From a virus, in the IMG/VR virus record IMGVR_UViG_3300009155_000248, positions 1 to 24,693 of that record: a DNA stretch of 24,693 nucleotides. One strand, given 5' to 3'. A program made the translations under genes and the position numbers. The stretch's first letter is position 1. Every line of letters starts with the position of its first letter. The notes beneath the pieces were generated by a model, which was not told where the DNA came from, ran no database searches, and saw only the letters and a program-made list of their open reading frames with translations. Positions 9,912 through 23,062 of the stretch are shown in pieces.

Positions 9912-11288
9912 ATGGCAGACTACATTGGCGCTACACCGCAGAACCCTTTGCTTGGTTTGCTCTATGGTGGCTACGATTATTTAAGATCACCGCAACGCAC
10001 CCAGCAGATGCAGGGTCTGGCTAGTCTGCTTGAGTCAACTGGTCTACCTAAGACCATTGAGCGTATGTCCTACGGTGAACCGTTGACGAACATAGGTCAA
10101 GCCAATGTGCCATTGCTAAAGCCAGAGACTGCTGAAGCCATGATGACGGTTGCGCCTATGGCTGGTCCTGCTGCAAGAACATTAGGTCGCGGTCTATTGA
10201 CTCTAGGTCCGAGCGAGGCTGCTGCGATGAGTAATCCTATGTCGCAGATGGGTGGCGTGACTACATCATTAAAGAAAAACATTACCAAAGCACCGCGCAT
10301 GAGCGCTGAAGAAGCTAGAGCTGCTGGATATTGGCATGACATTGGAGCTGGTAAAAAGTTACCAATACCAATATCAGAGATGAGGGCAACGCTAGAACCA
10401 GTAGGAAACTTACCGCCAAAGATTTCCATAACTCCAGAGAATATGAAGGGTGGATCAATAGTATCGCTTGCTGGTGATAGGTCTGCTACTGGTCAAAATC
10501 TTTTAGGAATTGGAGATGTGCAGTTTGAAAACCCTGTATATCTTGGGGGTGGTTATGACTTCATGCGTGCCAACTCACCAAGTGGATCAATATGGGCTTC
10601 TGAAAAAGGTGCTGCGCAAGGCTTGTTAAATCAGATAAATGAAGCTGCTAAATATGGAAGTGGTGATGTATATGGTGCTTATACATCGATGGGTCCGCTA
10701 TCAATGAATTACAACACCATGATGTCTGATGCTTTGCTTGAGCAGATGAAGGCTGGCAAGATAAGCAAAAAAAGTATTGCAGCATTTGATCGTCAAGTTA
10801 AAGCGGTGCGTCCTGAGTGGAAGGGCGTAATGAATCCAGAGTCTAGAGATCAACTTGAGTCAAATGGTGCTTTGCGAATTGCATTTGTTGATCGTATGCA
10901 GTTAGATGAATTCCAAAATGCAGGATTTCCAAACATTGCTCAAACAAGATTTGCAATTACAGACCCATTGCTATTGAATGAACCAATGTATTCTGGCGGT
11001 TTAGCGGTTGGCAAAATGAAGCCAAATACTGAGCTAATAACTAACCCAGTATCTCCTCATAAAACATATAACACGCAACTTGCTGGTGAGTATTTAGGTG
11101 GATTAGAGCAGTCAGTACCAAAAGAAATTATGTTCCCAGATTGGTACAAAATGCGCAGAGAAATTGGAGCGCCAGAGAGTGGAGATGTAAGATCATTCCA
11201 ACTTGCAAATCCAATACAACAAACTAATCAAGAGTGGCTAGATAACATCATGCAATATCTTGCAAGCCAAAAATCTCTCTTAGATTGA
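9912..11288 (+). CDS. Virion-associated protein with distinct AT-richer C-terminal domain
   Basis: 458 residues. Residues 1-110 look like the neighbouring virion proteins (short motifs, Gly/Met/Ala-rich). From about residue 125 (near 10270) to the end the protein is a globular domain with conserved-looking blocks: SIVSLAGDR, VYLGGGYDFMRAN, SIWASEKGAA, YTSMGPLSMNYNTMM, LRIAFVDRMQ, RFAITDPLLL, YNTQLAGEYLGGLE and EIMFPDWYKMRREIG. I recall this block series from large phage proteins, but it has no agreed function that I know. The DNA of this part is visibly richer in A and T than the upstream genes. It is the last gene of the rightward late block and its end overlaps the leftward gene by 41 bases. 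Confidence 0.8.
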   Translation: MADYIGATPQNPLLGLLYGGYDYLRSPQRTQQMQGLASLLESTGLPKTIERMSYGEPLTNIGQANVPLLKPETAEAMMTVAPMAGPAARTLGRGLLTLGPSEAAAMSNPMSQMGGVTTSLKKNITKAPRMSAEEARAAGYWHDIGAGKKLPIPISEMRATLEPVGNLPPKISITPENMKGGSIVSLAGDRSATGQNLLGIGDVQFENPVYLGGGYDFMRANSPSGSIWASEKGAAQGLLNQINEAAKYGSGDVYGAYTSMGPLSMNYNTMMSDALLEQMKAGKISKKSIAAFDRQVKAVRPEWKGVMNPESRDQLESNGALRIAFVDRMQLDEFQNAGFPNIAQTRFAITDPLLLNEPMYSGGLAVGKMKPNTELITNPVSPHKTYNTQLAGEYLGGLEQSVPKEIMFPDWYKMRREIGAPESGDVRSFQLANPIQQTNQEWLDNIMQYLASQKSLLD

Positions 11289-11455: not shown

Positions 11456-12160
11456 TTAAACACGACTTCTCAGCGCAATAAGCTCCAGCACATTAGGATC
11501 ATTTTCCTGACCCTTTGCTGGTGAGTACAGCGCTCTGTATCTTTCCTCTGCTTGCGGTCTTGGCTCGCACAAGTAGTACACCGCAAGAGACTTGCGTGCA
11601 AAGTCTTCTGGGCATTGGACAGGTCGTGAGAGTCCATGTAGTGAGTTTGTTGTGTCAAACAAAACAGCACGATTGAATTTAGGCATCACTTCTTTTACGA
11701 GGTTGGATGGCTCGCTCCACATCCCTAAGTGACCGCCAAAGTCTTTGTGCCAGTCTGGTGTCAGATACACGATTAGATTTAACCGTCTCTCAAGCAGTAG
11801 CTTAGGGTGTATGGAGTAGTCCAGATGCGGGTTGAGCTTTCCCCCAGAGATGTGCCTGTGCATACCAGCACCATGAAGACCAGCGTCAGCGTAGAGCGTG
11901 CAGCCAGTTAAGTGAACAAGGTGCTGCACAAAGTCAGGAGACACAAGGTGCTGCATTGCTTTATAAATACTGGCTGGGAAAGCACCCCAATGATTCATCG
12001 TTGACTTGTGCTCAAGTGCGTTGTTGTAATGCACCCAGAAGTCTTGTACCTTGTCAAAGTCTTGAGATATTTGCAGAGCGAGTTGTGGTGGAAAGAAGTC
12101 ATCAATAACCAAGTGCTTGAACGGGTGCTCGGACTGCCAAGCGAATGTGTGTGTGTTCAT
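11456..12160 (-). CDS. 2-oxoglutarate/Fe(II)-dependent oxygenase
   Basis: 234 residues, prolyl-4-hydroxylase-like double-stranded beta-helix (PF13640 type). The iron ligands are visible: His112 and Asp114 in NPHLDYS, and His175 in NSLHGLSRP. Arg189 (FARKSLAVYYL) is placed to bind 2-oxoglutarate. Before the core there is an MHRHISGGKLNPHLD lead-in typical of these enzymes, and GGHLGMW lies in the middle. The reaction would be hydroxylation of a substrate at the cost of 2-oxoglutarate and oxygen. The substrate is unknown; phage and bacterial relatives act on proteins or small molecules. Its ATG overlaps the stop of the winged-helix gene (ATGA), so it is part of the leftward operon. Confidence 0.88.
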   Translation of the reverse strand: MNTHTFAWQSEHPFKHLVIDDFFPPQLALQISQDFDKVQDFWVHYNNALEHKSTMNHWGAFPASIYKAMQHLVSPDFVQHLVHLTGCTLYADAGLHGAGMHRHISGGKLNPHLDYSIHPKLLLERRLNLIVYLTPDWHKDFGGHLGMWSEPSNLVKEVMPKFNRAVLFDTTNSLHGLSRPVQCPEDFARKSLAVYYLCEPRPQAEERYRALYSPAKGQENDPNVLELIALRSRV

Positions 12161-12528
12161 ATCTCACCAAAAAATGCAGCAGTCAACGGGTCACGCTTAA
12201 TCTTGCGTCTTAGTTGGTTTTGCTTGGTTAGTCTTCTTTCCTTTGCGTCTGCATCTTCTTTGGCTCGGTGCTTTCTAAGCCTTGAGCTGCTGCTCACAGG
12301 CTCAGGCTTATCTGCATCGACTCCGATGCCGTACCTATAAACAGCAGACCATTGCGTCACGCTCGTCTTACGCCAAGACTGGATGTGGACATTGCCTTGT
12401 GCTCTGAGCTTGGCGATCATGTCTCTGCTGGACCTGATGGTGCAGAAGAGAATCTCAGCCAGCTCGACAGCCGTGTATCCCTTTTGAGTGATCAGAGAGA
12501 TTAGACGGGGCAACCTGACTGGCTTCAT
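12157..12528 (-). CDS. Winged-helix-like DNA-binding protein
   Basis: 123 residues. Residues 5-55 read as a winged helix: a first helix, then KGYTAVELAEILFCTIRSSR as helix-turn-helix, a LRAQGNVHIQSWRK wing, and VYRYGIG as the closing strand. The C-terminal half (75-120) is a highly basic Arg/Lys tail with LRRKIKRDPLTAAFF at the end. Similar proteins occur in phages of Betaproteobacteria. It probably binds DNA and may regulate the phage. It overlaps the oxygenase start by four bases. Confidence 0.75.
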   Translation of the reverse strand: MKPVRLPRLISLITQKGYTAVELAEILFCTIRSSRDMIAKLRAQGNVHIQSWRKTSVTQWSAVYRYGIGVDADKPEPVSSSSRLRKHRAKEDADAKERRLTKQNQLRRKIKRDPLTAAFFGEI

Positions 12529-12633
12529 TCATTTGTCCTCATGTCCAAAGTACAGAACCGCAAAGATGATAGCAATGGCAATGGCAGCGCCAAGCGTTAG
12601 CAAGACGATGATGGTCAATATATTTTCAATCAT
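12529..12633 (-). CDS. 34-residue single-span membrane protein
   Basis: A short open frame: MIENILTIIVLLTLGAAIAI continues with AIIFAVLYFG and ends in HEDK. It has one long hydrophobic span with an acidic tail. The start (CAT at 12631-12633) has an AAGGGG ribosome site about nine bases upstream, overlaps the previous gene by 8 bases, and the stop abuts the next ATG without a gap. That tight fit to the operon supports a real gene. Function unknown. Confidence 0.65.
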   Translation of the reverse strand: MIENILTIIVLLTLGAAIAIAIIFAVLYFGHEDK

Positions 12634-12823
12634 AGTTAAGCCCCTTGAGTTTTAATTCAATATTCTTTGCGGTCTGCTCGATGTCGCAGCCCCCTTTTGC
12701 GTAGGCAATACACTTGTGTACCTGATCGTCGGTGAGGGACACCCACGCTCTTTTGTAGGTCTGGATGTCGTCGTCCTCATCAACCCTGCGATGCGGGACT
12801 GAGATGCCTATGTGTCGTGTCAT
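12626..12823 (-). CDS. Small hypothetical phage protein
   Basis: 65 residues. The start at 12823 is chosen because AAGGAG lies seven bases upstream and the ATG overlaps the previous stop (ATGA). A longer in-frame start at 12862 lacks this. The protein has an acidic patch (RVDEDDD, 13-19), a Trp in RAWVSLTDDQVHKC, two Cys (38 and 46) and a helical C-terminus. No family recognised. Confidence 0.7.
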   Translation of the reverse strand: MTRHIGISVPHRRVDEDDDIQTYKRAWVSLTDDQVHKCIAYAKGGCDIEQTAKNIELKLKGLNYD

Positions 12824-13011
12824 ATGTTGCGCTCCTTTAATGCTTGAACAGGTGTAACCCACATTGATGCCACATTCCCCGACGATGGGTCTTGGTCATA
12901 CACCCAAGGCAATTCAGCATCTCGCACATTAGGGGTAGCGTGTCGTGGAGGTGTCGGCTTGTAGATTTTGAATGCCACAGGCTCACTCTGCTCTTGTTTT
13001 GGTTGTGTCAT
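12820..13011 (-). CDS. Small hypothetical phage protein
   Basis: 63 residues, ATG overlapping the stop of the upstream gene (ATGA) with AGGAGA eight bases upstream. The protein is Pro/Thr/Gln-rich at the start and probably unfolded there. It then has DAELPWVYDQDPSSGNVASMWV and the helical end TPVQALKERNI. No family recognised. Confidence 0.65.
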   Translation of the reverse strand: MTQPKQEQSEPVAFKIYKPTPPRHATPNVRDAELPWVYDQDPSSGNVASMWVTPVQALKERNI

Positions 13012-13484
13012 ACCGTCTTCTCCTCTATTACTCTAGCTTTGCGTGACTTTATCTCATTAGCAACAATGTCGAGTGCCTTCTCTAGTTGCGCAATAGTGGT
13101 GATGTCGAGCTGTGCGTCGTGCAGCTCCATGCCGTAGTTGATCGCGGTGAGTTCTGATGCCTTCGCCACAAACCTATCGTCTCGATTGATACCGCGACGC
13201 GATAACTCCAGCAAGGCATCCTGTCCTTCTTTGATCTCGTCTACATATTCATGCCCAATGCCAAGGCGAGACAAGGCTTCGGAGACATTCAAAGCAGAGA
13301 TGATGGAGTCGATGTCGTAGCGCTTTGCCTGACCCGTCCTAAGCGCTTCTAGGGCAGAATGGTTCTTGATCTTGAGATCGAGTGCAGCGCTGCCAGTAGC
13401 GGACACAAGTCTAAAACCGTTTAAGACATAGGTGGTGGCATCGAGGCGCACGCCCTTGGGTTTGTATTTACTTCTTTTTCGCAT
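13008..13484 (-). CDS. Conserved hypothetical protein of Betaproteobacteria phages
   Basis: 158 residues. It starts with a basic MRKRSKYKPKGVRLD segment and continues as a mostly helical protein: YVLNGFRLVSA, LDLKIKNHSALEALRTGQAK, SIISALNVSEALSRLGIG, ELTAINYGMELHDAQLD and a C-terminal helix with KSRKARVIEE. I recall this pattern from phages and prophages of Betaproteobacteria, with no known function. It overlaps its upstream neighbour by 17 bases and its downstream one by four. Confidence 0.8.
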   Translation of the reverse strand: MRKRSKYKPKGVRLDATTYVLNGFRLVSATGSAALDLKIKNHSALEALRTGQAKRYDIDSIISALNVSEALSRLGIGHEYVDEIKEGQDALLELSRRGINRDDRFVAKASELTAINYGMELHDAQLDITTIAQLEKALDIVANEIKSRKARVIEEKTV

Positions 13485-13617
13485 TGCGTTGTTTTAACCT
13501 TGGGCAGTTTATGCAGAACACTTTTTCCTTGGACTGACACACGCCAAGGGTCTCGCACTTAGTGCGTAGTACAACCCACGGTGGCGGTGTCACCCATCTA
13601 GTTTTGACTTCTGTCAT
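13468..13617 (-). CDS. 49-residue Cys4 (zinc-ribbon-like) protein
   Basis: Short frame with four cysteines, Cys21, Cys27, Cys35 and Cys38 (spacing C-x5-C-x7-C-x2-C), preceded by WVTPPPWVVLR and followed by a basic tail ending in AKKK. The pattern fits a small zinc-binding finger. The ATG overlaps the upstream stop by four bases (ATGA, 13617-13614), and the end overlaps the next gene by 17 bases. Fit to the operon and the Cys pattern support a real gene. Role unknown; a zinc-dependent nucleic-acid binder is possible. Confidence 0.65.
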   Translation of the reverse strand: MTEVKTRWVTPPPWVVLRTKCETLGVCQSKEKVFCINCPRLKQRNAKKK

Positions 13618-13877
13618 TGCTGAGAAGCAATCATTTGCATCTCTAACTCTTTGACGCGCTCGGTCAGCTCTTTGACTGTCAGCTCTGCAACCTCCAGCTC
13701 GTTGCCGTGAGCACGCAAGGACATCTTCATGCCAGCGTCGTATCCAAGCATTGCACCCTTGTGCATTGCGTCTCTGGCTAGTTTGCCGACATCTTGTGGC
13801 GACATTATTCTGGCGCTACCTTCGGTCTTCAGAATGTATTGCAAGACCATCTCTTCGATTTTCTTTTGTACTGACAT
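13614..13877 (-). CDS. Small protein with C-terminal coiled coil
   Basis: 87 residues from the ATG at 13877. A start 24 codons upstream would run through the neighbouring gene and is rejected. The N-terminus is helical (SVQKKIEEMVLQYILK). The centre has a SPQDVGKLARDAMHKGAMLGYDAG stretch. The end is a coiled coil with heptad-like Leu and Glu (ELEVAELTVKELTERVKELE). The ribosome site is weak (GGGGT). Function unknown. Confidence 0.7.
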   Translation of the reverse strand: MSVQKKIEEMVLQYILKTEGSARIMSPQDVGKLARDAMHKGAMLGYDAGMKMSLRAHGNELEVAELTVKELTERVKELEMQMIASQQ

Positions 13878-13879
13878 GA

Positions 13880-14023
13880 TTAGTACCCCATTGTTAGCAT
13901 TGCTGTGATCAGACCGACCGTTACGCCAGCCAAGAAGATGAAGACGCAATCCACAAGGGAGATTCTGTTGTCTTCGTAAGGACCATCGACTTCAAAGTTT
14001 TCTGTGTAGTTTTGATGTTTCAT
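13880..14023 (-). CDS. 47-residue single-span membrane protein
   Basis: A short frame with an acidic, soluble N-terminus (MKHQNYTENFEVDGPYEDNR) and one hydrophobic span (about residues 24-45, ending MLTMGY). The ATG shares one base with the upstream stop (TAATG) and the stop lies two bases before the next ATG, so it fills the operon exactly. Function unknown; it could act at the host membrane. Confidence 0.65.
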   Translation of the reverse strand: MKHQNYTENFEVDGPYEDNRISLVDCVFIFLAGVTVGLITAMLTMGY

Positions 14024-14256
14024 TATTCGCTTTCAGAGTTAAACATTACGAGGGCTTCTTCGCAAATATGGTCTGCAATACTTTGCATAAGAAGGTGGGC
14101 GATGTCAATGTCACCACAAAAGGCATTGACCAGATTCATGCAAGCTGGGAAGTCTGGCGCTTCCCCGTAGTTCAATTCTTCGGGTTCGTGTTCGAGGAAG
14201 CAGACGAGAGTGACCCCTTCTACTTCGCACTTGAATCTGTACAGGTCTTCTAGCAT
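14023..14256 (-). CDS. Small acidic hypothetical protein
   Basis: 77 residues. The start at 14256 is chosen for the ribosome site AAAGGAG nine bases upstream; an ATG 17 codons further up lacks one. The fold looks mixed: strands at RFKCEVEGVTLVCFLEHE, then an acidic loop and a helical C-terminus with CGDIDIAHLLMQSIADHICEE. The stretch from GGAG to ATG (15 bases) is identical to that of the first gene of this operon. No family recognised. Confidence 0.7.
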   Translation of the reverse strand: MLEDLYRFKCEVEGVTLVCFLEHEPEELNYGEAPDFPACMNLVNAFCGDIDIAHLLMQSIADHICEEALVMFNSESE

Positions 14257-14269
14257 TTCGTTTACTCCT

Positions 14270-14521
14270 TTAATAATCTTGACCAGCGCGTGCGGGTTGT
14301 GCGCCAAGGAATTGAGGGTTATAGGGTGCGTTGTGATTCCATTCGCTGGCTTTGTCTTGGTTCAAGATGGCTAATGCTTCTTTGGCGCTGGAAGCCTCAT
14401 AGTCACGGCAGACTGCAACCTCAATGCCGTTGTCGTAAACCACAAGCCATGCACCTGACACGGTGCAATTAAGGCGTGGATTGAACTTCTCTTTTTGGCA
14501 ATAAATTTCTACGATTTTCAT
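14270..14521 (-). CDS. Small hypothetical phage protein
   Basis: 83 residues, ATG at 14521 preceded by AAGGAAAAC. A beta-hairpin-like start (MKIVEIYC) is followed by GAWLVVYDNGIEVAVCRDYEASSAKEALAIL, a strand-strand-helix pattern. The C-terminal 25 residues are Asn/Pro/Gln-rich and probably unfolded. It lies directly after an intrinsic terminator, so its expression depends on readthrough or a local promoter. No family recognised. Confidence 0.65.
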   Translation of the reverse strand: MKIVEIYCQKEKFNPRLNCTVSGAWLVVYDNGIEVAVCRDYEASSAKEALAILNQDKASEWNHNAPYNPQFLGAQPARAGQDY

Positions 14522-14532
14522 AATGTTTTCCT

Positions 14533-14554
14533 TAAAAGATGGGGCTTTCGCCCC
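14533..14554 (-). terminator. Intrinsic terminator in the leftward operon
   Basis: On the minus strand the bases read GGGGC-GAAA-GCCCC followed by ATCTTTT. That is a 5-bp GC stem with a GNRA-type tetraloop, then a short U-tract. It lies between the first and second leftward genes and would trim or weaken transcription of the rest. Confidence 0.65.
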
Positions 14555-14561
14555 GTTGGTT

Positions 14562-14834
14562 TTACTTGCGCTCTACTGTGCCGACTAACTCACCATCTGC
14601 GATTAAGAACAGGATGTGCTTGGCAATGTTGAGTGTTTGACGAGCACCTTCACGAGCACGCTCTACTTCACCATCTGCAATTAATTCCTGAGCATCTGAC
14701 ATCAGACCAGCAACTATCATATTTGCGCCCGTAAATTTATAAGTAGAAGATGCTTTTACAGAATTTACATAAGCAACAATATCTGGTACACCATACATTG
14801 CTAAGTTGCTGTTAAATAAAGTTGCGTTTGTCAT
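14562..14834 (-). CDS. First gene of leftward operon, small helical protein
   Basis: 90 residues with a clear ribosome site (GGAG, ATG twelve bases on from its first base). It is Asn/Ala-rich at the start and mostly helical after residue 36, with an acidic-basic helix (DAQELIADGEVERAREGARQ). The DGE motif occurs twice (54-56 and 79-81). It is directly under the leftward promoter and is separated from the rest by an intrinsic terminator, so it should be the most highly expressed gene of the block. No family recognised. Confidence 0.75.
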   Translation of the reverse strand: MTNATLFNSNLAMYGVPDIVAYVNSVKASSTYKFTGANMIVAGLMSDAQELIADGEVERAREGARQTLNIAKHILFLIADGELVGTVERK

Positions 14835-15091: not shown

Positions 15092-15304
15092 ATGAACTAC
15101 CTAACTGAAATAATTGAACGCGCTGAGAAAGCGGGTTTCAAGATGGCTGATATATGCAGAGAGGCTGGCATTGATCAGGCTCAGATGTCACGCTGGATGG
15201 CGGGGCATACCGTACCTCTGATCACCTCAATAGAGAAGCTCAGAACTGCCACAGATCGCTTGATCATTGGTCGCATCAAGTCGCTTGAGGTCAAGAATGA
15301 TTAG
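15092..15304 (+). CDS. Small HTH regulator (Cro/CI-like)
   Basis: 70 residues. Residues 15-45 form a helix-turn-helix: FKMADICREAGIDQAQMSRW, then a MAGHTVP loop, then a third helix, as in small XRE/Cro-type DNA-binding proteins. The C-terminus is a short basic helix (RLIIGRIKSLEVK). The gene has no ribosome site; AGG ends one base before the ATG. It is the first gene of the rightward operon, next to the divergent promoters, and is the best candidate for a switch regulator there. It overlaps the resolvase gene by 8 bases. Confidence 0.8.
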   Translation: MNYLTEIIERAEKAGFKMADICREAGIDQAQMSRWMAGHTVPLITSIEKLRTATDRLIIGRIKSLEVKND

Positions 15305-17774: not shown

Positions 17775-17894
17775 ATGGAAAACACACAAGAATTTTGGAT
17801 GCTGCTACTTATTGCGTTGGCTCAACGGGTCTACGAGTTGGAGCAGAGATTAGAACAAATAGAACAAGGACAAGAATGCAAGCCGAACAAATAG
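17775..17894 (+). CDS. 39-residue coiled-coil peptide upstream of primase
   Basis: Short frame from ATG at 17775: MENTQEFWMLLLIALAQRVY then ELEQRLEQIEQGQECKPNK. A hydrophobic helix is followed by a heptad-like coiled coil. It overlaps the primase start by 19 bases and carries that gene's ribosome site (AAGGA). There is no ribosome site of its own, just a T-tract before it, so translation is doubtful. It may exist only to couple translation, or may be chance. Confidence 0.35.
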   Translation: MENTQEFWMLLLIALAQRVYELEQRLEQIEQGQECKPNK

Positions 17895-19909
17895 CGCAAG
17901 CGCTTGGCAACGCAAAGAAGGTGAACGGGCAATGGATGGCGAGCTGTCCTGTCAGCAGTCACGGGCAGGGTAACGGGGACAGAAATCCAAGTCTTTGTGT
18001 ATCGGAGACAGACGAAGGCAAGCCGTTGTTTAAGTGCTTTAGTGGGTGCTCTCAGGACGAGGTGTTCCACGCAATCAAAGACTACGGGTTGCTGAAAGAC
18101 CTACCAAACCCGATGGACTTCTTGACGCAGATCAAACCGTTACCGAAACCGCAAGAACCTGTGTTGGAGCAGGAGTGGCATTACACAGATGAAGACGGCA
18201 TCACCCAGCACATAAAACAACGCTACAAGACCTTTGACTCCAAAGGAAAGACATACAAGCAGTACAGGGTGGACGAGAACGGCAGACGGCACGCATCAAT
18301 GACGGGTGCGAACATAGTCCCGTACAACTTGCCAGAAGTTGAGTACGCAAGAAAGACAGGCAGGACTGTCTTCTTGTGCGAAGGCGAGAAGGCTGCCGAC
18401 GCTCTCAAGTCTTTAGGTGTGGTGGCAACCTGCACGCACAACGGTGCAAGCAACTTCCCCGAAGATGTAGTCAAGCACCTAGTCGGACTGACTATTGCGA
18501 TAGTCCCAGACAACGATCTGGTCGGCTGGGAGTACGCAAGGAAAGCAGTTGCAGCGCTCAAGTCGGTTACAAAAAGTATCCGAGTGGTTGACCTTGGGTT
18601 ACAGGAGATAAAAGAAGACGCATACGAGTTTGTCCATAAGTATGGCGGTGACAAGGACAGGCTGGTTGACCTGACAAAGGCAACGCAAGCAGTCATAAGT
18701 GAACTGGATGTAACGACTCCTGCAAGATTGATTGGCGTTGCTGAGACACCAGTAATAGAAGAGTTGGAGCTGCCACAAGCACCACTACAACGCGAAGGAT
18801 TCAAGCTCGAAGCGTGGGACAGCATTGAGGACGAACCAGTTGAGTGGCTCATTCAAGGAGTCATACCGCAACGATCATTCGTTGCCTTATACGCACCGCC
18901 AGCTTCGTTTAAGAGCTTCGTCGCACTCGACATTGCGGAGTGCATCGCAACGGGAAGAGCATTCCTTGGCAACCAGATTACCAGACGCGGTGCAGTCCTG
19001 TACATCGCAGGTGAGGGTCATGGCGGTATCGGGTCACGCATTAAGGCTTTGAAGACGCATCACAAGACACCAGTTGGAGCGCCTGTTTACTTCTTGCGCA
19101 GACAAGTCAACCTTCGGTCAAGTAAGACAGACCTCCAAGACTTGGTGGCAGCCATTGACGACCTCAAAGCAATCAACGAGATCAACTTTGAGTTGATCAT
19201 CATCGATACCTTAGCTAGAGCGTTTGGCGGTGGTAACGAGAACGCATCAGAGGATATGGGTGCATTCATTACGGCTGCTGGCGCTATACAAGGACGGTAT
19301 ACCTGTGGCTTGCTGGTAGTCCATCACGCTGGTAAGGACGCGACCAAGGGACTGCGCGGTCACTCTTCCCTGCTTGGCGCAGTAGACACCGAGCTGGAGA
19401 TTATCAGGATCGAAGGCGCTCAACCGCCAAAAGGAATACTGCACATCTCCAAGCAGAAGGACGGTGTGGACGGGCAACGCATTGGATTCAAGATGATTGA
19501 GGTCAGCTCCAGCAGACTCAATGTCGCTGACACATCCAGTCTGGCGGTAGAACCTGACAAGGAGATGGACACATCGGTCAAGCAGAAGGTAAAACAAAAC
19601 CCTCCAGACGCTACTGGAAATGGAAAGAATCAAAGGCTCGCAATGGAATGCTTGTATGAGGTCGTTGCCGAAAAAGGGTTCATGCGCGACTCAATAAAGT
19701 GCGTTGGGATTGGCTATTGGGAGGAAAGATTTAGGCAGAAAAAGGGAAATAACATCGCCAAAAAGTCAGTTGATAAGGCATGGAGGGAAGTGCAAGAGGA
19801 TTTGGTTGATTACAAAAAAGTAGTAATAAATCGTGACATATGCTGGATCGTATATGAGGACAAAAACGCTTCAGAATACGAAAAAGAGGAGGAGTATTCA
19901 GATGCTTAG
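17876..19909 (+). CDS. Primase-helicase (zinc, Toprim and RepA-like ATPase domains)
   Basis: 677 residues from the ATG at 17876 (AAGGA upstream); a 27-residue longer frame has no support. Domain 1: zinc-binding with Cys24, His29, Cys54 and Cys58. Domain 2: Toprim, with Glu169 (FLCEGEKAADAL) and Asp212/Asp214 (IVPDNDLVG), for primer synthesis. Domain 3: RecA-like ATPase of the AAA_25/RepA type with a P-loop at 340-347 (APPASFKS, with Lys346-Ser347 but no glycines), Walker B at 440-444 (LIIIDT) and the HH motif at 483-484 (LLVVHHAGKD). The C-terminus (590-677) is a helical domain ending in a run of Glu. It should load and unwind at the fork and prime synthesis. Confidence 0.88.
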   Translation: MQAEQIAQALGNAKKVNGQWMASCPVSSHGQGNGDRNPSLCVSETDEGKPLFKCFSGCSQDEVFHAIKDYGLLKDLPNPMDFLTQIKPLPKPQEPVLEQEWHYTDEDGITQHIKQRYKTFDSKGKTYKQYRVDENGRRHASMTGANIVPYNLPEVEYARKTGRTVFLCEGEKAADALKSLGVVATCTHNGASNFPEDVVKHLVGLTIAIVPDNDLVGWEYARKAVAALKSVTKSIRVVDLGLQEIKEDAYEFVHKYGGDKDRLVDLTKATQAVISELDVTTPARLIGVAETPVIEELELPQAPLQREGFKLEAWDSIEDEPVEWLIQGVIPQRSFVALYAPPASFKSFVALDIAECIATGRAFLGNQITRRGAVLYIAGEGHGGIGSRIKALKTHHKTPVGAPVYFLRRQVNLRSSKTDLQDLVAAIDDLKAINEINFELIIIDTLARAFGGGNENASEDMGAFITAAGAIQGRYTCGLLVVHHAGKDATKGLRGHSSLLGAVDTELEIIRIEGAQPPKGILHISKQKDGVDGQRIGFKMIEVSSSRLNVADTSSLAVEPDKEMDTSVKQKVKQNPPDATGNGKNQRLAMECLYEVVAEKGFMRDSIKCVGIGYWEERFRQKKGNNIAKKSVDKAWREVQEDLVDYKKVVINRDICWIVYEDKNASEYEKEEEYSDA

Positions 19910-20815: not shown

Positions 20816-21256
20816 ATGGCTGGTAGACCAAAACGCAAGTCGGACTTGGCTGCGCTTGATTCGTTGCCGAAGGAACATATCGTCGCAATGCTTGAGGCTG
20901 GGCAGCCGATTGCACGCATCTGTTACGCGCTCGGAGTTGGTCGAGTTGCACTCGAAGATTGGCTGTCAAAACAGGAGAATGAAGGTCTCGCCTCGCGTGC
21001 GCGTGCGAAGGCTGCGGACGACATGGTAGCAGAAAGCATACTAATTGCTGACGAAACCGATGTCGAAGAGGTACAAAAGGCTAGATTACGGGTGCAAACG
21101 AGGCAATGGGTGGCAGAGCGCTGGAATCCTGCCTCATACGCCCAGAATAAGATGCCAAGCGTGCAAGTGAACCTGTCTGGCATGAGGCTGGACGCATTGC
21201 GACACATCGAGGTCGTTGAGGACATATCCACAGAAAACAGCGAGAAGTTGTCCTAG
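20816..21256 (+). CDS. terS: Terminase small subunit
   Basis: 146 residues. It starts MAGRPKRKSDLAALDSLPKE. An HTH follows at about 25-52 (GQPIARICYALGVGRVALED), then the block ARAKAADDMVAESILIADET, then RVQTRQWVAERWNPASYAQNK. This is the pattern of phage small terminases that bind the packaging site and feed DNA to the large subunit. The C-terminus is acidic and short. It lies directly before the origin-like non-coding segment and terL; GGAGG is nine bases before the start. One DnaA-box-like 9-mer lies in its last codons. Confidence 0.88.
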   Translation: MAGRPKRKSDLAALDSLPKEHIVAMLEAGQPIARICYALGVGRVALEDWLSKQENEGLASRARAKAADDMVAESILIADETDVEEVQKARLRVQTRQWVAERWNPASYAQNKMPSVQVNLSGMRLDALRHIEVVEDISTENSEKLS

Positions 21257-21320
21257 TTGTCCACAGTTGCGTGGAAACTGGCGAAGTTATGCACAAAACA
21301 CCCGTCAAACCTGTGGATAA
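21224..21320. promoter_or_regulatory. DnaA-box cluster, candidate replication origin
   Basis: Four 9-mers: ATATCCACA (21224-21232, one mismatch), TTGTCCACA (21257-21265, one mismatch), TTATGCACA (21287-21295, matches TTATNCACA) and, on the minus strand, TTATCCACA (21312-21320, perfect). The AT-rich stretch at 21321-21360 could be the unwinding element. This is the main content of the non-coding gap between terS and terL. Boxes are seen; origin function is inference. Confidence 0.65.
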
Positions 21321-21562
21321 CAGCAAAATAACTTTACATAATGGACATAGTATAAAGTAGGTGTAGAGATTAGTATTCGTTTCTGCTTGTTTTCTGCTTG
21401 TTTTCTGCTGACAGATTCGGGTTTACCCCCCCCTTCGCTTGGCGCGACGGGTGGCGCTGAAACTGCACCCCGACAGTTACCGACCTAACACCCCCCCACT
21501 ACCCCTACCCACAGCACCACTCAACCCTAAAAAAATAAAAAAAATCAAGGCACAATCCTGAC
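21257..21562. other. Non-coding segment between terS and terL
   Basis: The largest gene-free stretch in the window. In order: three DnaA-box-like sites, an AT-rich stretch (21321-21360), 11-bp direct repeats (21380-21410), an 8-C run (21426-21433), a GC-rich part with GGCGC sequences, a 7-C run (21491-21497), a C-rich, G-poor tract to about 21525, and an A-rich run (21529-21545) before the terL ATG. A packaging (cos/pac) site could also lie here. Confidence 0.8.
21380..21410 (+). repeat. 11-bp direct repeats TTTCTGCTTGT
   Basis: TTTCTGCTTGT at 21380-21390 and again at 21391-21401, then the partial TTTCTGCTG at 21402-21410. The period is 11 bases. It lies 60 bases to the right of the DnaA boxes. 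Confidence 0.8.
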
Positions 21563-23062
21563 ATGACGACAGAATCAACTGCACCAGTACAAAAGAAACT
21601 ACACCCACAGGTCAAGGAGACGCTAGACCGTATCCACGACAAGCGACAAGACGAACTCAGCAAGAATCCCTTTGTTGCGTTCACCATCCGCTACAAGAAC
21701 AACCCCACGCTCTTCGTGAAGGAAGTCTTAAAAGCCAACCCCGACACTTGGCAAGAGACCTTCCTCACGCACATCGCAAAGGGCAACCGCAGAATATCTG
21801 TAAGGTCAGGGCATGGCGTAGGAAAGTCCACAGCAGCGAGCTGGGCGATCATCTGGTACTTACTGCTCAGATACCCCGTCAAGGTCGTCGTCACCGCCCC
21901 CACATCCAGCCAACTCTACGACGCACTCTTTGCGGAACTAAAGCGCTGGGTGAAGGAACTGCCTGAGACCTTGCGGGATATGCTCGAAGTCAAGCAGGAC
22001 AGGATCGAGGTCAAGGAAGCAGCGTCCGAGGCTTTCGTCTCAGCCAGAACCAGTAGGGCAGAGCAGCCAGAAGCCCTGCAAGGTGTCCACTCAGAGAATG
22101 TGATGCTGGTAGCTGACGAGGCATCTGGCATCCCAGAGGCAGTCTTTGAGGCTGCTGCGGGGTCTATGTCTGGACACAATGCCGTGACCCTTTTGCTGGG
22201 CAACCCTGTCAGAAGTTCGGGATTCTTTTACGACACCCAGAACCGACTGGCGAACGATTGGGTGACGATGAAGGTGAGCTGCAAAGACTCGCCAAGGGTC
22301 TCAGATGCCTATGTCGAAGAGATGAAGGCGCGGTACGGGGAAGAGTCGAATGCCTACCGAATAAGGGTACTAGGTGAGTTTCCAAGGTCAGACGACGACA
22401 CCATCATCCCGATGGAACTCTTGGAACTGGCAAAGCACCGAGATGTCGAGACCTCCCAGCACGCAAAACTGATCTGGGGCTTGGATGTCGCACGCTTTGG
22501 TGGCGACAGGTCTGCACTCTCGAAGAGACAGGGCAACGCATTGATTGAACCCACGAAGACTTGGAAAAACCTAGACTTGATGCAACTCACAGGCGCAGTA
22601 GTCGCGGAGTGGGAAGCCCTACCGCCAAGCCAGAGACCGCATGAGATCATGGTGGACTCGATTGGACTTGGCGCTGGCGTAGTAGACCGTCTCAGAGAAC
22701 TTGGGTTGCCAGCCCGTGGCATCAATGTCTCAGAGTCCCCCGCGATGGGTACGACTTATCGAAATCTAAGGGCAGAGCTTTGGTACAAGGCAAAGGCGTG
22801 GTTTGAGGCGCGTGACTGCCGTATCCCAAATGACGAGGAGCTGGTGGCTGAACTGGCGACGGTGAGGTACTTCTTTAGCAGCGCGGGGAAGATGCAGGTC
22901 GAGGGCAAGGACGACATTAGAAAGCGCGGTCTGAGGTCACCTGATAAGGCAGACTCGTTTGTATTGACCTTTGCGTCCGACGCTGCCGTCTCGATGTTTG
23001 GTGCGAATACGAGTCAGAAGTGGTCGCAACCGTTGAAAAGAAACCTGTCAAGGGTTGCATAA
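21563..23062 (+). CDS. terL: Terminase large subunit (ATPase and nuclease)
   Basis: 499 residues. Walker A is at 83-90 (GHGVGKST) and Walker B at about 180-186 (VMLVADE, catalytic Glu186), with a QLYDALFAELK helix between. The nuclease domain has Asp308 (GLDVARFGGD), Asp365 (MVDSIGLG) and Asp464 (SPDKADSF), the RNase H-type metal site. It is the motor that packages DNA into the prohead and cuts the concatemer. The length is normal. The start has AAGG twelve bases upstream, a loose ribosome site after an A-rich tract, so translation may be moderate. Confidence 0.95.
   Translation: MTTESTAPVQKKLHPQVKETLDRIHDKRQDELSKNPFVAFTIRYKNNPTLFVKEVLKANPDTWQETFLTHIAKGNRRISVRSGHGVGKSTAASWAIIWYLLLRYPVKVVVTAPTSSQLYDALFAELKRWVKELPETLRDMLEVKQDRIEVKEAASEAFVSARTSRAEQPEALQGVHSENVMLVADEASGIPEAVFEAAAGSMSGHNAVTLLLGNPVRSSGFFYDTQNRLANDWVTMKVSCKDSPRVSDAYVEEMKARYGEESNAYRIRVLGEFPRSDDDTIIPMELLELAKHRDVETSQHAKLIWGLDVARFGGDRSALSKRQGNALIEPTKTWKNLDLMQLTGAVVAEWEALPPSQRPHEIMVDSIGLGAGVVDRLRELGLPARGINVSESPAMGTTYRNLRAELWYKAKAWFEARDCRIPNDEELVAELATVRYFFSSAGKMQVEGKDDIRKRGLRSPDKADSFVLTFASDAAVSMFGANTSQKWSQPLKRNLSRVA

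Follow-up and report, generated by a model that had tools for sequence, protein, structure and literature searches.

Organization of the terS-terL region

The window, by which we mean the whole stretch of DNA analyzed here, comprises 24,693 bases of a lake phage and is entered in IMG/VR as a linear virus sequence; the record itself is partial. A megablast of phages with the window gave zero matches. The genes relevant to this work are the following:

15092..15304, + strand: small Cro/C1-type HTH protein (phrog_4 transcriptional repressor, E=1e-4; Pfam HTH_3 under the cut-off)
17795..19909, + strand: RepA-like primase/helicase, AAA_25 (PF13481, E=3e-40; phrog_906, phrog_239)
20816..21256, + strand: terS, terminase small subunit, Sf6-type (PF20901, E=3e-13; phrog_1482)
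21563..23062, + strand: terL, terminase large subunit (phrog_2, E=2e-44; PF03237)

The HTH gene is located where leftward genes (11456-14834) and rightward genes diverge. Its product may possibly act as a lysogeny or early switch, which is a hint and no proof.

Four 9-mers resembling the DnaA box had been noticed within 21224-21360, between the two terminase genes, two of them as exact matches. All four were recovered there, at 21224-21320, and both Pfam and PHROGs confirmed the identity of terS and terL. Offsets are given relative to the dif-like site described below:

21224..21232, + strand: DnaA box 1, ATATCCACA (1 mismatch), in the 3' end of terS, offset -107
21257..21265, + strand: DnaA box 2, TTGTCCACA, offset -74
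21287..21295, + strand: DnaA box 3, TTATGCACA, exact TTWTNCACA, offset -44
21312..21320, - strand: DnaA box 4, TTATCCACA, inverted, exact TTWTNCACA, offset -19

Boxes 2-4 lie in the terS-terL gap and only box 1 overlaps terS; the box starts are spaced by 33, 30 and 25 bp. The whole 24.7-kb window contains two exact TTWTNCACA sequences, while 2.12 were expected from shuffled windows. Thus, the total is ordinary, and it is the clustering that is not due to chance, as both matches fall within the array, 25 bp apart.

To follow the array in close relatives, we used 80 IMG/VR loci whose TerL is 86-100% identical to that of the window. Neither an equal box density elsewhere nor a loss of the boxes, both of which would have spoken against the original prediction, was seen in these loci. 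Loosely defined boxes had a density of 5.27/kb within 500 bp upstream of terL vs 0.20/kb elsewhere, and the array was kept, in a fixed order, in nearly all relatives with sufficient upstream sequence. The distance from the array to terL varied from about 190 to 880 bp despite the constant box order. The position of box 3 reads TTATCCACA in many relatives; it is missing in a marine sub-clade, which retains boxes 2 and 4 at a distance of 55-56 bp. In members of this sub-clade, such as L054 and L057, box 3 is replaced by a short inverted repeat (TTGTTGCAGCGATGCAACA) located between boxes 2 and 4. Judging from these high-affinity 9-mers and the strong selection that appears to act on them, DnaA very likely binds the boxes. 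The observation that started this work is sound, and stronger than was claimed for it.

A dif-like site adjacent to the DnaA boxes

An AT-rich stretch had also been noticed to the right of the boxes. It is indeed present, but it consists largely of an overlooked dif-like site, which begins ten bases right of box 4:

21331..21358, - strand: dif-like XerC/XerD site (XerC-type arm ACTTTATACTA, centre TGTCCA, XerD-type arm TTATGTAAAGT)

This 28-mer is composed of an 11-bp XerC arm, a 6-bp centre and an 11-bp XerD arm, shows dyad symmetry together with the dif consensus, and has its XerD-type arm directed toward the DnaA boxes. With a matrix derived from the 29 proteobacterial dif sites tabulated in PMC2731167, it scored 17.7 bits, and the maximum among 40 shuffled windows was 14.5; taken alone, this score is moderate, and it is the relatives that carry the argument. 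The 28-mer is the best-conserved block of the terS-terL gap, is uninterrupted in all window-family contigs examined, and represents the top dif match, usually the sole one, in each of eight assembled window-family genomes. It is very probably an Xer-type site. It should be noted that a phage contig with other gene content (L194:11-38) ends at the exact 28-mer of one window-family genome, G007 (ACTTTATACAATGTCCATTATGTAAAGT), and carries no DnaA boxes.

The nearest published dif site is that of Rhodoferax ferrireducens (ACTTGATACGATGTATATTATGTTAAGT; PMC2731167), with which the phage site shares an unusual XerC arm, ACTTNATACNA; the host is therefore presumably betaproteobacterial. Single-copy chromosomal sites of the matching unusual type (ACTTYATACGATGTATATTATGT..) were found in 3 of 398 Pseudomonadota genomes. 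The chromosomal site ACTTCATACGATGTATATTATGTAAAGT (G1031) is identical to the window site at 24 of 28 positions, including the entire XerD arm, and the centres differ at two of six positions (TGTCCA in the phage vs TGTATA in the host). No good DnaA box was present within 200 bp of the three matching chromosomal sites, and the idea that the composite of boxes and dif-like site is host-derived was dropped for this reason.

Boxes and dif-like site as a single unit in different phages

We next scanned viral contigs for the pattern of the composite and analyzed 26 non-redundant flanks, counting boxes with at most one mismatch in 160 bp to the left and 100 bp to the right of the dif-like site. In total, 85 boxes were located on the left, where 1.3 were expected, vs 2 on the right. 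The inverted box was at -19 in 24 of the 26 flanks and another box at -74/-75 in 23; the outermost box occupied -97/-98 or, about one helical turn farther, -107/-108. The offset -44 likewise belongs to the recurring set. The composite was found beside unrelated terminase types, and at three loci (L339, L340, L353) the terminase genes run the other way with respect to the entire composite, whose internal geometry is preserved. Similarly, in a separate clade with an alpha-type dif, TTATCCACA precedes the dif site in 76 contigs, and the spacer is 38 or 39 bp in 76/76, where 24-54 bp were allowed.

From their arrangement, the boxes and the dif-like site appear clearly to form a single composite unit. 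Because the offsets are fixed, one-sided and held even when the unit is inverted, the boxes are better explained as accessory sequences of a recombination site than as a free-standing origin.

Other elements of the gap were considered as well. Three TTTCTGCT repeats with an 11-bp period (21380..21409, + strand) are missing or reduced in relatives; they were rejected as iterons for this reason and probably lie outside the composite unit. DnaA-trio-like TAG repeats (21349-21370) were rejected too, being unconserved among relatives and having no adjoining box. A C-rich, purine-poor tract (21424-21530) lies between the Xer site and terL, and occurs in the same gap of relatives. Contigs of several metagenomes stop within it, 44-87 bp before terL, two of them at the identical base (GCTGAAACTGC). 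The tract may correspond to the physical ends of the genome or may simply have blocked assembly, and the contig ends are only suggestive as termini.

Dif-like sites in distant relatives

The TerL of phage C72C1 and its kin is about 50% identical to that of the window family. In the terS-terL gap these phages have canonical alphaproteobacterial-type dif sites such as ATGTCGCATAATGTCCATTATGGAAATT, mostly in a shared orientation. Considering the window family and the C72C1 kin together, a dif-like site of at least 15 bits was present within 2.2 kb upstream in 140 of 163 terL loci and in 0 of 80 control stretches; about half of the terL loci with no site are contigs broken off just before terL. 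Many of the distant relatives, C72C1 itself among them, have a dif-like site but no DnaA box, while others have one box 38-39 bp away.

An exact IHF consensus was present to the left of dif in 9 of 21 C72C1-type flanks, vs 0.14 expected. The motif GCTAAGTCATTGAAATCATT is found repeatedly in alphaproteobacterial phages (L203-L219, L087, L096), both next to dif-like sites and at other positions, and its variants (TAAGTCATTGATA) fit the IHF consensus; in Paracoccus phage R3 (L220) and Rhizobium phage TRX32-1 (L221) it reads ATGGCTAAGTCATTGAAATCATTA (MAKSLKSL). We rejected CTAAGTCATTGAAAT as a phage-specific motif, since it is found in unrelated phages and variants fit the IHF consensus.

Dif-like sites and integrase genes exclude each other

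The scan for integrases covered the tyrosine family (PF00589). None of the 36 near-complete genomes with a dif-like site had a PF00589 match, vs 4 of 6 with no such site. PF00589 was likewise absent from 17 long window-family contigs, C72C1, dif-bearing C72C1-type contigs and 26 further composite contigs. Among the near-complete genomes found through terL, an integrase was present in 0/22 with the site vs 4/6 without it (Fisher p=7e-4), and as the integrase matches of G253 and G254 are identical, about three independent integrase lineages stand behind these counts. The integrase-bearing relatives phiM5, MW202496, G253 and G254 had no dif-like site in the sequence examined; MW202879 and MW202711 had neither an integrase nor a dif-like site. 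Since site and integrase are mutually exclusive, we suggest that the dif-like site does the integrase's work, either in insertion or in circularisation/resolution.

Search for integrated copies

No close TerL relative was found as a prophage among 84,980 species genomes. About 800 sampled host-type genomes likewise gave no integrated copy: the composite pattern was absent from 401 genomes of the family in which the matching dif occurs, and no prophage with a C72C1-type terL was detected in 397 genomes of the family to which a MAG labelled Rhodobacteraceae belongs; among these 397 genomes a C72C1-type TerL occurred solely in that MAG, on a short contig.

A different element is present on contig L351, where direct repeats TGTGCATTATGTAAA of the window dif type (27-54 and 10251-10278) surround a small element encoding a zot-like ATPase and a replication protein, beside pilus-type ATPase genes. 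It is unrelated to the window phage and is probably a Xer-integrated prophage of a related host. With these repeats on both sides, the element makes it probable that sites of this type are used for integration in related hosts. Insertion of the phage into the host dif is a plausible proposal, multimer resolution or circularisation being the main alternative.

GC skew and DNA stability at the site

The box cluster was originally predicted to be a host-DnaA-dependent phage origin, at which the GC skew should change sign. In five circular relatives the skew instead falls at the site: it is strongly positive up to there and close to zero beyond, and none of these five genomes shows an origin-type GC-skew minimum at this position; an origin-type skew was dropped accordingly. 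Our reading of the fall is that it is terminus-like or transcriptional. The easily unwound region next to the boxes is the dif-like site itself, the dif side being among the 0.1-0.4% least stable 60-bp windows in the five circular genomes (rank 35-126 of about 36,000), which leaves some room for origin activity. With the GC skew unsupportive, a pure DnaA-dependent origin is a poorer reading of the locus than a Xer site. What stands of the original interpretation is the DnaA boxes, their position between terS and terL and the very likely binding of DnaA to them; its free-standing origin is less well supported, as the boxes are spaced to the dif-like site that it had overlooked and the skew gives no origin signal.

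Discussion

The label "DnaA-dependent origin" should give way to "composite DnaA-box/Xer site of integrase-less tailed phages", and the presence of this composite is well supported by the sequence comparisons. The sites, their fixed geometry, their conservation, the unrelated terminases beside them and their mutual exclusion with integrase genes are established, and from these we infer binding of DnaA and of the Xer proteins, the accessory role of DnaA and the outcome of recombination.

The best-supported mechanism, to which we assign a probability of about 0.55, is that host XerCD would recombine at the core in the integrase's stead, with DnaA as the accessory protein. The dif-like core would be taken by host XerC/XerD, and DnaA, occupying the three to four boxes next to the XerD-type arm, would act as an architectural or regulatory accessory, in the manner of ArgR/PepA at cer and of ArcA/PepA at psi. 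The outcome would be either insertion into the host dif, that is, integrase-less lysogeny of the IMEX kind, or resolution/circularisation of phage multimers. More tentatively, it can be hypothesized that widespread integrase-less tailed phages use host XerCD at a dif-like attP with host DnaA as accessory, which would tie integration, excision or resolution to the replication-initiation state of the host. Against the XerCD/DnaA mechanism stand the missing integrated copies in the genomes scanned, the uninterrupted site of the family contigs, the two centre positions at which phage and host differ, the small number of integrase lineages behind the exclusion, and C72C1, whose dif-like site has no boxes. 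We also know of no precedent for DnaA as a Xer accessory.

An origin together with a Xer site is the usual plasmid pair. A plasmid-like cassette could accordingly be imagined, in which the boxes and the easily melted dif side serve as the origin of a circular phage state and post-replicative dimers are resolved at the dif-like site. Such a cassette agrees with the circular assembly of five relatives, with the rank of the site region among the least stable windows, with the RepA-like primase/helicase gene, and with the failure to find integrated copies in the genomes scanned. An origin, however, would not need exact spacing to a Xer site; no rise in GC skew starts there, none of the annotated proteins was recognised as a partition protein, and the dif-like site of many distant relatives has no DnaA box. 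We consider this explanation rather unlikely.

That the locus is a DnaA-dependent origin of lytic replication, the resemblance to dif being incidental, is improbable. The high-affinity boxes, the inverted last box and the AT-rich flank are as expected of such an origin, but no part of the gap is better conserved than the 28-mer, distant relatives devoid of boxes hold a canonical dif in the same gap, and both the skew pattern and the exclusion of integrases speak against it. Slightly less probable still is a decoy or nucleotide switch, in which the array would sequester or convert host DnaA and so block host initiation, with the dif-like site as a separate neighbour. The datA and DARS2 loci are likewise characterised by box clusters with fixed spacing and by IHF sites (PMC4585315), but a decoy explains neither the fixed spacing to the dif-like site nor the integrase exclusion, and some clades have one box only. 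Finally, the view that the genome is cut in the terS-terL gap and that conservation reflects a cos, pac or DTR function finds support in the terminal repeat of phiM5 directly before terL and in the contigs ending in the C-rich tract, but it is very improbable, as the composite is kept with unrelated terminases in both orientations and the contig breaks lie outside it.

Comparison with known systems

The composite resembles bacterial oriC, datA and DARS1/DARS2 in its clustered high-affinity DnaA boxes, whose spacing is conserved, and in some cases in IHF. To our knowledge, none of these is coupled to dif and no phage version exists. Among chromosomal dif sites, those of the betaproteobacterial Rhodoferax type are similar in the XerC arm and in overall identity, but differ in their centre and in having no good DnaA box nearby.

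The plasmid Xer sites cer (ColE1) and psi (pSC101) resemble the composite in having a 28-30 bp Xer core with sites for accessory proteins on one side. The accessory proteins are ArgR/PepA at cer and ArcA/PepA at psi, and their DNA lies next to the XerC side of the core. In the composite, by contrast, DnaA boxes occupy the accessory position and adjoin the XerD-type arm. The fixed coupling of DnaA boxes to a Xer core points to a complex in which recombination would respond to the host replication initiator.

Like the window phage, the IMEX phages (CTXphi, VGJphi and TLCphi, as well as Jorvik-like and gokushovirus prophages) have no integrase and carry a dif-like site in their genome, on which host XerCD is expected to act. 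In the open-access literature on phages using dif we found only filamentous, tailless or microviral cases and no tailed phage. The window phage differs from the IMEX phages in being a tailed dsDNA phage with terS/terL and in possessing a DnaA-box array at fixed spacing; integration is only a proposal here. A dif-like site conserved in the integrase's place in freshwater and marine tailed phages would extend the XerCD-exploiting lifestyle to ordinary dsDNA phages, and would allow hidden temperate or plasmid-like phages, scored as virulent for want of an integrase, to be recognised. Recurring as it does in many phages that have no integrase of their own, the composite suggests that its carriers rely on two systems of the host for handling their DNA.
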